NCBI GenBank assembly: GCA_004010535.1
Contig: RQYE01000004.1
Span: 62,001 to 126,000, forward strand
Direction of reading: 5' to 3'
Source of the DNA: Coriobacteriales bacterium OH1046
Lineage (GTDB): Bacteria; Actinomycetota; Coriobacteriia; Coriobacteriales; Atopobiaceae
Length of the DNA stretch: 64,000 nt
Each line of letters begins with the position of its first letter. The stretch's first letter is position 1. The position numbers and the translations under genes were made by a program. The notes below the pieces were generated by a model. The model was not told the origin of the DNA and did not search any database. It saw only the letters and a list, made by a program, of their open reading frames with translations. Shown here in pieces: positions 21,000-25,235 of the stretch.

Positions 21000-21989
21000 C
21001 TAATTTATGAGCGTCTCGAGTTCGGCCATGTAAGCCACGACATCATCGAAGGCGGGTACCTCGCCGAAGATCATCGGACGCATCGCATCGTAGTCTGCTT
21101 GGAGTTCGGAGAGCCGTGCTTTCTGCGGGGAGAGTCTCAGCGTGCCGGGCTTGGCTTCGGCCAACTTCGCCCAAGGCGTACGATAGAATTTTTCCTTGAA
21201 GGCGACAACGTGCGCCAAGAGGCCGGGCTGGGCTATGGCACGTTCGGCAACCTCCGAGTGCCCCAGTCGATACATATCGTAATAGTGGCGCGCGTAGCGC
21301 CGGGGCATGCCCTTGCTGTCGGGTCGGTTCGCTTCTTGGTGCAGTATGGTCGCTTTCTCCCAGAAGCTGCGCTCTGGCACGGCGGTGATTGCAGTCGTTG
21401 TCGGGTCAGAGAAGAGCTGCGGATACGGTTCGGACAAATACGGGGAGATCGTAGCTGGAGCCGAAGGCGACCAAGCGGCGAGCGGGCCGATTTCAAGTTT
21501 CACCACATCAAGTGTCGCCTCGGATGAGAAGAGCCTTGGATAGGCGAACAGCACTGTCTCCTCCTCTCCACCCATACGCACGTCGGCCTCGCTTCCCAGC
21601 TCCTCAGAAAGGCCGGCCTTGAGCGATGGGGCGAAGACGCCTGCGAGATAGGCGTTTGTGCGCTCGACAGCCTGAAGCTTGAACTTGTCCTGCTTGCTAT
21701 TCGACCGCGCTTCCCACGGCTCATCTATGCCATACCCGATGAGTCGCCAGTCTAGGATGAGATCGATATCCTCCGAGAAGCGCTCGATGATGCGGTAAGC
21801 CTTGGAGAGACTCGTACCACCTTTGAAGATGATCGATCCTGCGAACTCGCTACGGTGGAACAGGTAGTTAAGCAGGTAGCACACCCACAGATCCTTCTCG
21901 ATGATAGCTTCCGAAAGGCCCATCTCAGATGCACCCAACTCGATGAGTGCGGCCCGCTCATCATCCGGCATGGTGACGACGTTCAGCAT
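21000..21989 (-). CDS. AbiEii-type nucleotidyltransferase toxin
   Basis: A 329-residue toxin of the AbiEii/AbiGii nucleotidyltransferase family. Visible are the FKGGTSLSKAY active-site loop (GS motif region), the FSEDIDLILDW acidic motif that supplies the catalytic Asp residues, and the later RYARHYYDMYRLG and FKEKFYRTPW blocks. In known AbiE systems (type IV) the toxin adds nucleotides to tRNA or otherwise blocks growth after phage infection. The chosen ATG at 21989 overlaps the antitoxin stop by seven bases; a start 14 codons earlier also exists. Confidence 0.88.
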   Translation of the reverse strand: MLNVVTMPDDERAALIELGASEMGLSEAIIEKDLWVCYLLNYLFHRSEFAGSIIFKGGTSLSKAYRIIERFSEDIDLILDWRLIGYGIDEPWEARSNSKQDKFKLQAVERTNAYLAGVFAPSLKAGLSEELGSEADVRMGGEEETVLFAYPRLFSSEATLDVVKLEIGPLAAWSPSAPATISPYLSEPYPQLFSDPTTTAITAVPERSFWEKATILHQEANRPDSKGMPRRYARHYYDMYRLGHSEVAERAIAQPGLLAHVVAFKEKFYRTPWAKLAEAKPGTLRLSPQKARLSELQADYDAMRPMIFGEVPAFDDVVAYMAELETLIN

Positions 21990-22606
21990 CCCTTGGCCTC
22001 TCTCATCTTCTTCGCGAACTCGAAAATCCATGCCGTCGATCCACGCGTCTCATCGTAGAACGTGTCGATCTCGTCGGTAGACAGACGCTCTGCGACCCGG
22101 TGCACCACCTGATCGTCAACGGCATCCTTGCCGAGCGCCTTGAGTGCTTGGATGACAAGGCAGGTAAGCGGCGAACAATCGAGCAGGTCGCGATTCGCGC
22201 GGTGCTTCATGACTATCTTGAACCTACCGTACCCATAGCTCTTGTACGGTCCACTGCTGACGTACTCGTAGACTGCGGGAACCTGTACGTCGAGGCCTAA
22301 GCGATTGAGCGCGGCATCGCCCGAAGGGACGATTATCCACCTGTTGTTACGCGCGATGGCATGTGCGATGGCGTCGGGAGAGGGCGGGACGTCGACACCG
22401 AGTGCATTAACGTGCTTGGGCTTTGCGTACACACCGCGCATAGCGCGCATGATGTCGCCGCGCCGCGCCATGCGCGAAAGCACGGCGTTGGTGTTGTCGA
22501 CACTAGCGATGTCGTGGAAGTCCGAAGGCACGAAAACCGTTCCTGACTCGGCTTCTGCGATCCGCTGCTCTATCTCGCGTGCTGTGGACAAAAGTACCTT
22601 CCTCAT
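21983..22606 (-). CDS. AbiEi-like antitoxin / DUF6088 winged-helix protein
   Basis: A 207-residue protein: an N-terminal winged helix (VLSRMARRGDIMRAMRGVYA) and a C-terminal domain with IVPSGDAALNRLGLDVQVP and CSPLTCLVIQALKALG, typical of DUF6088/AbiEi antitoxins. These repress their own promoter and counter AbiEii. The start has no ribosome site. A TATACT -10-like hexamer ends about 14 bases before it, and a TGTCA...TGACA dyad (22611-22640) spans that hexamer, so the message may be nearly leaderless and autoregulated. Confidence 0.82.
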   Translation of the reverse strand: MRKVLLSTAREIEQRIAEAESGTVFVPSDFHDIASVDNTNAVLSRMARRGDIMRAMRGVYAKPKHVNALGVDVPPSPDAIAHAIARNNRWIIVPSGDAALNRLGLDVQVPAVYEYVSSGPYKSYGYGRFKIVMKHRANRDLLDCSPLTCLVIQALKALGKDAVDDQVVHRVAERLSTDEIDTFYDETRGSTAWIFEFAKKMREAKGC

Positions 22607-22668: not shown

Positions 22669-22697
22669 ATCATCCCCTGTTCATATACCAGATGCGC
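22669..22697. repeat. Right 29-bp direct repeat, inside the coaX 3' end
   Basis: Encodes the last residues of CoaX (ARIWYMNRG and stop) on the minus strand and matches 20869-20897 exactly. If excision occurs it should leave one copy and an intact coaX. Confidence 0.9.
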
Positions 22698-23458
22698 GCG
22701 AGGCCGTGCAATGTGAGCCCCTCATCGACGGTTGCCTCGTGGCTGAGCAGCCCTGCAACAAGCTCTGCATTGCTCCCGGTGACGACCACCAAAGCGTTGC
22801 AGCCCAGCTCGTCGAACACCTGGTCGAGGAGGCCGTCGATACGCGCCGCCTCGCCAAACAGCAGACCCGATTGCATGGCCTCATACGTGTTTCTCCCAAT
22901 GGCCGAGGAGGGCGCGCGCAGCTCGACCAAGGGAAGGCGCGCCGCAGCTCTTCCAAGCGCATGCATGCCCAGCATGAGTCCGGGCGCGATTATGCCGCCG
23001 GCAAACGATCCCGTGCCGTCCACAACCTCGATGTTGGTGGTCGTTCCCAAGCTCACGACCACGACAGGCGCACCGTAGCGCTCCTGAGCTGCCGCGACAT
23101 TGGCAACCCGGTCGGCACCGACACCCGACGGGTCATCCTGGCGCATCCGCACCCCGCATCTGAGGCCCGGACCCACCACGAGCGCACGCGTGGCCGCCAT
23201 GCCCGAGAGCGCCCGGGCCCACACGTTGGCGTGAGCCGGCACCACGCACGAGAGGATGGCCCCGTCGGGGGTGCGGTAGCCGCCCAGAATCTCGTCTACG
23301 ACCGAGCATGCCTTCGCACGGGCCTCGTCCTCGGTGATGGCAGCCGGGGTGGCAGCATCCCATGTTCCCAAAAGATCCCCACCCGAAAAGAACCCGAAGC
23401 GTGTGAGGCCATTGCCCACATTGACGGCAAGGACGGTCTTCCCGCTCTGCTCGGCCAT
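22670..23458 (-). CDS. coaX: Type III pantothenate kinase-like protein with two active-site Asp residues replaced
   Basis: A 262-residue ASKHA-fold protein clearly of the CoaX/Baf family: GADRVANVAA, GTTTNIEVVDG, GGIIAPGL and ARLPLVEL are conserved. The phosphate-loop Asp of the usual DVGNT motif is Asn here (AVNVGNGLT), and the Asp of the DxGT motif is Ser (VVVVSLGTTT). The Asp of GADR is kept. In characterised enzymes all three Asp residues matter for catalysis, so kinase activity is in doubt. Start at MAEQSG has GGGGGT upstream. Divergent from the OPT transporter. It could be a regulatory paralogue, with another PanK elsewhere. Confidence 0.85.
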   Translation of the reverse strand: MAEQSGKTVLAVNVGNGLTRFGFFSGGDLLGTWDAATPAAITEDEARAKACSVVDEILGGYRTPDGAILSCVVPAHANVWARALSGMAATRALVVGPGLRCGVRMRQDDPSGVGADRVANVAAAQERYGAPVVVVSLGTTTNIEVVDGTGSFAGGIIAPGLMLGMHALGRAAARLPLVELRAPSSAIGRNTYEAMQSGLLFGEAARIDGLLDQVFDELGCNALVVVTGSNAELVAGLLSHEATVDEGLTLHGLARIWYMNRG

Positions 23459-23573
23459 ATCGTGTACCCCCAATTCGCCGGCAAGCTCGCGTGTCCGTCT
23501 CAACTATACTGTAACCATCCGAGACGTAACCCGACTCCCCGCCAAGGGGGAGCGGATATGCGAAGGGACGAAC

Positions 23574-25235
23574 ATGGGCATTGAGAACGACGGCCGCTCT
23601 TCCGGGCGCGGGCAGCTGAGCGTGGCGGGCATCATCATCGGCCTCGTAGGCTGCATCATCATCACGGCATCATCGGTCTACACCGCGCTCAAGATGGGAG
23701 CGCTGCCTTGGCCGACCATCTTCACCTCCATCACCTCGCTCGTGCTTCTCCGCGCGTTCGGCCATAGGAGCCTGAACGAGGCCAACGTCACGCAGATCAT
23801 CATGTCTGCCGGCTCCATGGTGGCGGGCGGCCTCGCCTTCACCATCCCGGGCATCTGGATCCTCGGCCTTGCCGATGAGGTCAGCTGGGTCGATATGCTC
23901 CTCGTCGCCCTTGCGGGAACGCTTCTGGGTCTCGTGTGCACCGCCCTCATCCGCAGGCGCCTCGTCGAGGAGTCGAACCTCGAATATCCCATCGGCGTCG
24001 CGGCTGCCGAGACCCTCAACGCGAGCAACGCGGGAGGTGCCACGGGCGCCAAACTCTTCGGCTCCATGGCGCTCGCGGGCCTCTGGAGCGTGGCCCGCGA
24101 TGTGCTGGGCATCATCCCGGCCATGCTCTGCACGCTCCCCATCCCAGGCGTGAGCTTCGGCATCTACAACTCGCCCATGATGCTCTCGGTGGGTTTCCTC
24201 GTGGGCGGCGTTGCAGTCGTATTCTGGTTTGCCGGTGCCCTGCTCGGCAACTTCGGCATCACCGTGGGCGGCACCGCAGCCGGTCTTTGGGACGTTGCCA
24301 CGGCACAGGGCATCGTCTCGAGCCTGGGTATGGGCCTCATGATGGGCTCGGGCCTCGGTGTGGTGGTACGCGACATCCTGCCCCAGTTGGCCGGATACCT
24401 GCGCGGTCGCGAGGGTATGGGGCTCGGCCGCAAAGATCTCCGCAAAGGCGATGCGGGCATCCTCGGCCTGTTCGTCGCCATCGCGGCGCTTCTCATCGGC
24501 CTCGGCCTCGGGCTCGGTCCTGTCGCGACGGTCATCATCGTGGCGCTCAGCTTCGTGACCACCATCATGAGCGCGCAGTCGGTGGGACAGACCGGCATCG
24601 ATCCCATGGAGATCTTCGGCCTCATCGTGCTGCTCGCGGTAGCAGCTACCTGCGATATCGGCCAAGCGAGGCTCTTCTTCGTGGCGGGCATCATCGCCGT
24701 GGCCTGCGGGCTGGGCGGCGACATCATGAGCGATTTCAAGACCGGCCAGATCATAGGGACCGACCCGCGCAAGATGTGGATCGGCCAGGCCATCGGCGCG
24801 CTTCTCGGCACGGTTGTCTCGGTCGCGGTGATGGTCGCCCTCGTGGGCGCCTACGGCACGGGTGCCTTCGGCCCCGGCCAGCTGTTCGTCTCGGCCCAAG
24901 CCTCGGTCGTGGCGACCATGGTCTCGGGCATCCCCAGCGTGCCCTCGTTTGCCATCGGCCTCGCGGCAGGCATCGTCCTCTATTGCCTGGGACTTCCCTC
25001 GATGATGATCGGTCTAGGCGTCTATCTGCCGTTTTACCTGTCGCTCTCGGCATCTCTCGGCGCACTCGCCAAGCTGGCCTACGACAAGCTGCACAAGGAA
25101 GCTGGAAAAGGCCGCGACGCCGAGCTCAGCCACGATGATACCGGTGTCATCGTGGCGTCGGGCTTTTTGGGCGGCGAGTCGATCGTGGGAGTCGTCATCG
25201 CGCTGGTCACGGTGATCGCAGGTCTTACGGGATAG
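23574..25235 (+). CDS. OPT-family oligopeptide/metal-chelate transporter
   Basis: A 554-residue, very hydrophobic protein with about 14 membrane segments. Family marks include SSVYTALKMGALPWP near the N-terminus, NEANVTQIIMSAGSMVAGG, LEYPIGVAAAETLNA, and the late CGLGGDIMSDFKTGQIIGTD with PRKMWIGQ. OPT carriers move small peptides or metal chelates by proton symport. The start (MGIENDG) has AAGGGA 7 bases upstream. A small stem (CTCCCC/GGGGAG, 23535-23552) lies in its leader. Confidence 0.88.
   Translation: MGIENDGRSSGRGQLSVAGIIIGLVGCIIITASSVYTALKMGALPWPTIFTSITSLVLLRAFGHRSLNEANVTQIIMSAGSMVAGGLAFTIPGIWILGLADEVSWVDMLLVALAGTLLGLVCTALIRRRLVEESNLEYPIGVAAAETLNASNAGGATGAKLFGSMALAGLWSVARDVLGIIPAMLCTLPIPGVSFGIYNSPMMLSVGFLVGGVAVVFWFAGALLGNFGITVGGTAAGLWDVATAQGIVSSLGMGLMMGSGLGVVVRDILPQLAGYLRGREGMGLGRKDLRKGDAGILGLFVAIAALLIGLGLGLGPVATVIIVALSFVTTIMSAQSVGQTGIDPMEIFGLIVLLAVAATCDIGQARLFFVAGIIAVACGLGGDIMSDFKTGQIIGTDPRKMWIGQAIGALLGTVVSVAVMVALVGAYGTGAFGPGQLFVSAQASVVATMVSGIPSVPSFAIGLAAGIVLYCLGLPSMMIGLGVYLPFYLSLSASLGALAKLAYDKLHKEAGKGRDAELSHDDTGVIVASGFLGGESIVGVVIALVTVIAGLTG

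Follow-up and report, generated by a model that had tools for sequence, protein, structure and literature searches.

A second CoaX protein with two lost aspartates and a hairpin-led transporter gene suggest a change from processing to sensing of vitamin B5 in Coriobacteriales

Catalysis by type III pantothenate kinases (PanK-III, CoaX) is held to need three aspartates. Baf of Bordetella, a PanK-III homologue, is implicated in gene regulation. A description of Mycobacterium tuberculosis CoaX presents it as a non-kinase regulator of pantothenate supply that, as long as pantothenate is absent, promotes PanB depupylation (PMC12288473), and a panC-panD-coaX grouping is reported for the same organism (PMC7770189). 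At the RNA level, the pan motif of Weinberg et al. (2010) is a hairpin located upstream of pantothenate genes, with features presented as suggestive of binding by a dimeric protein (PMC2864571). 

We analysed a stretch of 64,000 nucleotides from Coriobacteriales bacterium OH1046, referred to below as the window. It encodes a PanK-III paralogue, CoaX2, divergent from a gene for an OPT-family transporter preceded by a leader hairpin (Table 1). Searched with the Pfam profile PF03309, CoaX2 scored 164.6 bits against a cut-off of 24.7 and thus belongs to the family; its best PDB sequence match was 2h3g (E 6.2e-41). The AlphaFold model of the protein, with a pLDDT of 92.6, adopts the PanK-III fold, matching solved PanK-III chains with Z-scores of 23 to 31. 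The top match was M. tuberculosis CoaX (9b78, Z 31.2, 32% identity), B. anthracis CoaX (2h3g) scored 30.9, and the values for 9b78, 2h3g and 3djc all fall within 1 Z. The structure of a putative Baf (PDB 2nrh) matches at Z 18.3, and the profile TIGR00671 carries the name baf; CoaX2 resembles Baf of Bordetella as a PanK-III homologue with a proposed regulatory role. The open reading frame gives 262 amino acids from its ATG, an alternative longer reading starting from a TTG at 23503.

Aligned with characterised PanK-III, CoaX2 reads VNVGNG where the solved chains have DVGNT, the same VGADR, and VVSLGTTT where they have VDFGTAT. Asp is replaced by Asn at position 13 and by Ser at position 136, Asp116 is retained (codons checked), and the first motif has also lost its Thr (GNG). 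These readings bear out the initial annotation, which had proposed Asn for Asp in the first motif and Ser for Asp in DxGT with the GADR Asp and the rest of the fold kept; the second coaX that it suggested looking for was found intact in the same genome. The protein shares with PanK-III (PF03309; PDB 2h3g, 3bf3) its fold, length, GADR and Gly-rich motifs and 35 of 38 near-invariant residues. It differs from them in lacking two of the three Asps of DxGN, GADR and DxGT that characterise an active enzyme, in coexisting with a separate intact CoaX and in being tied to a transporter gene. As far as its residues tell, the window CoaX2 would be catalytically inactive. M. tuberculosis CoaX (PDB 9b78, 9cku) has the same fold but differs from the window protein in that neither motif has lost its Asp (DVRNT, DFGSS). 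According to its description it acts on Dop/PanB depupylation (PMC12288473), whereas the window CoaX2 is tied to a transporter leader. A sequencing or assembly error was ruled out as the source of Asn13 and Ser136, because both motifs are letter-identical in a second assembly (G001, 99% identical) and in a protein of another genus (G017, 69%), and both substitutions recur in G155, G158 and G162 of one further genus.

Table 1. Features of the coaX2-OPT locus (positions in the window)
Feature	Position	Strand	Basis
coaX2, PanK-III paralogue, Asn13 and Ser136 replacing Asp	22670..23458	-	ORF, PF03309, alignment with PanK-III
Ser136 codon	23051..23053	-	Asp in 63/63 intact CoaX2 and 22/22 CoaX1
Asp116 codon, GADR	23111..23113	-	kept in 150/150 CoaX2 rows covering the position
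Asn13 codon	23420..23422	-	Asp in 63/63 intact CoaX2 and 22/22 CoaX1
-10-like box TATACT, towards OPT	23505..23510	+	pattern count in relatives
Leader element (model R1, 68.5 bits)	23510..23573	+	covariance model, alignment, folding
Hairpin: GUA/UGC stem, internal loop, CCG/CGG, bulged A, 6 further pairs covarying across relatives	23526-23561	+	fold
Shine-Dalgarno-like GAAGGGA	23562-23568	+	directly 3' of hairpin
OPT-family transporter (PF03169), candidate pantothenate importer	23574..25235	+	PF03169, context

Two PF03309 genes over the cut-off were found in the genome of the window, the other copy (CoaX1; G000:C15:26228, locus L001) being the intact one. CoaX2 of the window is closer to proteins of other genomes (49-99% identity) than to this paralogue (41%), and the CoaX1 and CoaX2 sets split in a tree with a support of 100/100. 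Using E-value thresholds that are an arbitrary choice, CoaX2 was detected in 67 of the 140 genomes of the family (1e-55) and in 161 of the 395 genomes of the order (1e-60). CoaX1 is likely the working pantothenate kinase of the genome, because the type I kinase CoaA gave no match over the cut-off in 60 genomes, own included, in a search that reached this cut-off in just 4 of 14 control genomes. CoaA as a stand-in kinase was rejected: 21 of the 60 genomes, again own included, have matches, every one below the cut-off. Regarding de novo synthesis of pantothenate, no PanC was found in the genome of the window, and PanC is present in 8 of the 140 family genomes. The PanB match of the genome is over the Pfam cut-off with 142 bits, compared with 327-394 in five other genomes of the same search. 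De novo synthesis was not retained for this genome, which is without PanC and has a low-scoring PanB match of ambiguous role. The association between absence of PanC and presence of CoaX2 was too weak to be used.

Among 41 genomes examined with PF03309, all 29 bearing CoaX2 have a second match, although in G154 it is merely a fragment of 32.5 bits. This systematic pairing would be expected if CoaX2 with Asn and Ser were a structural partner of CoaX1, the dead subunit of a heteromer completing or tuning the live active site. PanK-III works as a dimer, which also speaks for such an arrangement. A precedent is described in type II PanK, with PanK1/PanK2 of Plasmodium and Toxoplasma (PMC8366970). 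We nevertheless find a heteromer improbable, as it does not account for the linkage of CoaX2 with the hairpin and with OPT, PanF and panBCD, presented below. In G154 the fragment (G154:C70:2337-2495) is the sole other PF03309 match and CoaX2 is intact; the assembly may have split CoaX1, or the genome may lack it, and CoaX2 may be the working kinase there.

The protein had initially been taken as a single oddity. Its residues stand, its singularity does not: it is one of 16 degenerate members, with one or both Asps lost, among 148 fully scored CoaX2, and its clade is associated with a transporter gene and an RNA hairpin. The first 71 CoaX2 proteins comprise 63 with all three Asps and 8 degenerate ones, namely six with the Asn/Asp/Ser pattern (G000, G001, G017, G155, G158 and G162), one with Asp/Asp/Ser (G106) and one with Asp/Asp/Gly (G085). 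The CoaX2 of 81 further genomes comprise 69 intact, 8 degenerate (G240, G194, G347, G339, G327, G352, G300 and G190) and 4 without a full score, leaving 77 fully scored. All three Asps are thus present in 132 of the 148, and these proteins may be active kinases, judging from their motifs. The GADR Asp is never lost in the rows covering it (Table 1), and CoaX1 is intact in 22 of 22 cases. The G190 protein (L220) is extremely diverged, with a branch of 3.95 and still 128 bits to PF03309; the Gly-Thr of its DxGT is gone too, and hairpin and OPT still adjoin it.

After removal of the motif columns, a tree of 96 CoaX2 and 11 CoaX1 required six transitions between the intact and the degenerate state. 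Since the branches of G190 and G300 are long and support is weak at many forks, we count the independent losses of Asp as several and not as exactly six. The seven degenerate CoaX2 of the same kind as the window protein group in a single clade, with a support of 99/94 when the motif columns are kept and an SH-aLRT of 86 when they are dropped. The intact G154 protein is sister of this clade without the motif columns (82) and a deeper branch with them. Asn13 arose twice or reverted, because G106 keeps Asp13.

We then considered that the CoaX2 of this lineage might simply be a redundant gene being lost, the Asps before the gene. Related genomes do keep OPT-A without CoaX2, and a decayed hairpin is found in G146. 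However, the selection data argue against it. The dN/dS ratios (Nei-Gojobori) of close degenerate pairs were 0.079 for G000-G001 and 0.127, 0.148 and 0.102 for G155, G158 and G162 among themselves; the ratio was 0.151 for G000-G017, where dS is near saturation, and higher, 0.276 (about 0.28), for G017-G106. By comparison, 12 intact CoaX2 pairs gave 0.10-0.38, the top value resting on two differences, and the CoaX1 of the G000-G001 pair gave 0.30. The degenerate CoaX2 are thus under ordinary purifying selection, with ratios no higher than those of the intact copies and with intact reading frames. We also defined a near-invariant set of 38 positions, conserved in at least 97% of the 63 intact CoaX2 and in at least 90% of the 22 CoaX1. 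All six Asn/Ser proteins keep 35 of these 38, so that only the two catalytic Asps and one conservative position (Leu10 to Val, in 3 of the 6) are changed, and several genera share the same changes. The pattern is that predicted for a protein having lost phosphotransfer with its pocket and fold kept; a decaying gene would look otherwise. Given the low dN/dS of the degenerate pairs, similar to that of intact copies, gene loss appears very improbable.

When 19 CoaX2 neighbourhoods of 11-15 kb were compared, an OPT-family transporter was the sole companion common to all, any other gene cluster occurring in at most 5 of the 19. OPT and CoaX2 are head to head in all 71 loci, their starts being about 96-633 bp apart in 70 of them and separated by a gap of about 1.5 kb in G088. 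By contrast with this, no OPT was found within about 1.5 kb of CoaX1 in 22 CoaX1 loci. The longest OPT reading frame of the window begins at 23334, within coaX2; in view of the Shine-Dalgarno-like run and of the relatives, the ATG at 23574 is the likelier true start. In G241, G242, G243 and G300, the hairpin, OPT and CoaX2 follow each other in that order on a single strand. The surroundings of six CoaX2 genomes without hairpin were read (L183-L188: G225, G279, G280, G310, G319 and G254) and no adjacent OPT was found. Five of them (L184-L188) encode a CoaX2 that keeps the three Asps and lies near no OPT and no hairpin, and G225 has the same context with an unscored motif. It follows from these six genomes that CoaX2 has some role apart from OPT.

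Just downstream of coaX2, at 21000-22606 of the window, lie genes for an AbiEii-like nucleotidyltransferase (PF08843) and a DUF6088 protein (PF19570), likely a type IV toxin-antitoxin pair from their family assignments; among 20 loci compared, this pair is common to G001 only. Between G000 and G001, dS is 0.066 for CoaX2 (L004/L005) and 0.227 for CoaX1 (L001/L118), and the OPT of G146, from another genus, is 98% identical to that of the window. The lower dS of CoaX2 and the identity of the G146 OPT together suggest that the coaX2-OPT region was recently exchanged between genomes.

The gap between CoaX2 and OPT was analysed by counting k-mers, and a conserved block was detected in 33 of 36 non-redundant loci. 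In the consensus fold of 35 loci, a GUA/UAC stem is followed by an internal loop and by CCG/CGG pairs; beyond a bulged A, six more pairs close a loop whose length varies greatly. In the corresponding alignment, 7 of the 12 pairs changed on both sides, a number reached in 0 of 500 shuffles, and 99.5% of the cells were paired against 92.8% in shuffles, versions slid along the alignment scoring far lower. The paired positions of the leader hairpin thus covary, as is required of a structured RNA. The first ATG or GTG is mostly located 14-17 nt downstream of the conserved block, after the Shine-Dalgarno-like run. Within 45 nt upstream of the hairpin, a TAYAHT box was found in 43 of 69 loci, compared with 1.85 expected from shuffles; in 38 of the 43, the distance from the start of the box to the hairpin is 18-23 nt. 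From the position of this -10-like box, transcription towards OPT probably begins near the hairpin.

To our knowledge, the pan motif is the nearest described RNA, and we know of no reader of it. Both have a conserved bulged A in a hairpin before pantothenate genes; as described, the pan motif has two bulged As and occurs mostly in tandem, whereas the leader hairpin has one and is single-copy (PMC2864571). They share the bulged-A hairpin plan only. No match at the gathering score of Rfam 15 was found in the window or in nine loci, and a scan of the region (301 bases) down to E 10 listed none over the hairpin and no pan match. The snoRNA matches in the region were discarded: their scores fall far short of the gathering level, and they lie downstream of the hairpin.

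A covariance model, R1, was built from 35 sequences, nearly all taken from the 71 CoaX2 loci, and it matches 71 of these 71 loci. Letter patterns were weaker than the model: a loose one matched 70 of the 71 together with false matches, and a strict one missed L019 and L075. Over the order, R1 gave one match per genome in 170 of 395 genomes, and 152 of the 161 genomes with CoaX2 also have the hairpin. Of the 18 genomes with a hairpin only, 14 have a CoaX2 after all, under the threshold or elsewhere (that of G190 very diverged). The other four are G146, with a remnant, G207, at a contig end, and G302 and G355, which are incomplete genomes. This rescue of sub-threshold CoaX2 was made in hairpin-positive genomes only, so that the count of genomes with neither is an upper bound. 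CoaX2 does not adjoin the hairpin in G241, G242, G243, G300, G306, G327 and G352. Conversely, nine genomes have CoaX2 without hairpin, a number unchanged with laxer search filters.

Genomes having OPT-A but no CoaX2 were specifically considered. Among 21 such loci, 20 have no hairpin, a 12-bit chance match aside, and G146 exhibits a 28.8-bit remnant before OPT together with a single PF03309 gene; G084, a fragment, is a further OPT-A genome without CoaX2 outside these 21 loci. Of these 21 genomes, nine were searched with PF03309, and each gave one copy only. In a tree of OPT from 36 loci with and 21 without CoaX2, the joint state changes seven times. Such co-loss alone does not prove dependence, because CoaX2 and hairpin usually adjoin and a single deletion removes both.

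The hairpin precedes OPT in 30 of the 30 loci L142-L171, in 11 of 12 pattern-bearing loci of a second set and in 14 of 15 of a third one. In G365, an OPT match lies some 390 bp downstream of the hairpin, inside a long reading frame. In G347, the hairpin precedes genes for a DUF997 protein and the sodium/pantothenate symporter PanF (TIGR02119, 455 bits for a cut-off of 328), with a divergent CoaX2. In G352, the hairpin, a Rossmann/DUF2520 gene (PF10728, 118 bits), panB, panC, panD and coaX2 form a single run (L227:3972-7973), which resembles the grouping panC-panD-coaX reported for M. tuberculosis (PMC7770189). Both these CoaX2 lack the first Asp. These two exceptions, one genome for each target, name the pathway, and their common denominator is pantothenate supply. 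The genomic tie to pantothenate supply comes from these two members of the clade, the window itself having OPT only.

These targets are also those anticipated for the main rival explanation, in which the hairpin is a small riboswitch binding pantothenate or a metabolite of the CoA pathway and CoaX2 is a fellow member of the regulon, an accessory kinase trapping imported pantothenate whose activity was lost in some lineages. The hairpin is compact and covarying; some of its unpaired letters are invariant, and a Shine-Dalgarno-like run adjoins it. It stands before OPT, PanF or panBCD, and most CoaX2 keep all their Asps. However, the hairpin is nearly limited to CoaX2 genomes, even without adjacency, and missing or decayed at the OPT-A loci devoid of CoaX2. 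Moreover, a mere trapping kinase would not account for degenerate CoaX2 persisting under purifying selection. We thus hold the riboswitch explanation to be rather unlikely.

On balance, we consider it probable that the window CoaX2 is a non-catalytic pantothenate sensor controlling pantothenate supply via OPT, most likely by binding the hairpin, with CoaX1 as the enzyme of the CoA pathway. In this scheme, CoaX1, encoded elsewhere, would do the kinase job; pantothenate would bind in the retained pocket of CoaX2, with its GADR Asp and Arg and its conserved Thr and Gly residues, and the absence of the other two Asps would abolish phosphotransfer. The target of the sensor would be the divergent OPT-family gene, where it would most likely bind the leader hairpin beside the Shine-Dalgarno-like run and gate translation. 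We infer that the hairpin is the target of CoaX2 because it nearly always accompanies CoaX2, even when the two are apart. Likewise, pantothenate as the ligand of CoaX2 and the cargo of OPT, binding to RNA and the direction of control are inferred from this context. Most of the CoaX2 proteins are acidic (median pI 5.1, range 4.5-7.8), which counts against RNA binding; the nine CoaX2 genomes without hairpin and the large majority of CoaX2 with all three Asps also count against the proposal.

In the literature searched on PanK-III/OPT, pantothenate transport, the pan motif and pantothenate riboswitches, we recognised no description of the OPT-CoaX2 pair or of the hairpin. More tentatively, it is possible that CoaX2 proteins across the order are RNA-binding pantothenate sensors reading a bulged-A hairpin before genes of pantothenate uptake or synthesis, that OPT-A transports vitamin B5, a function so far not recognised for it, and that the pan motif elsewhere might have a CoaX reader too. 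The leader hairpin adds a structured RNA without Rfam 15 match, with few target genes and with CoaX2 as a candidate protein partner. Orthologues of known B5 transporters are reported in 75% of predicted B5 auxotrophs (PMC6593275), and OPT is a candidate for a missing vitamin B5 transporter. Finally, the persistence of a second and apparently dead pantothenate kinase in some bacteria has been stated as an unanswered question (PMC8366970); a CoaX2 that senses pantothenate would offer a reason for keeping it.
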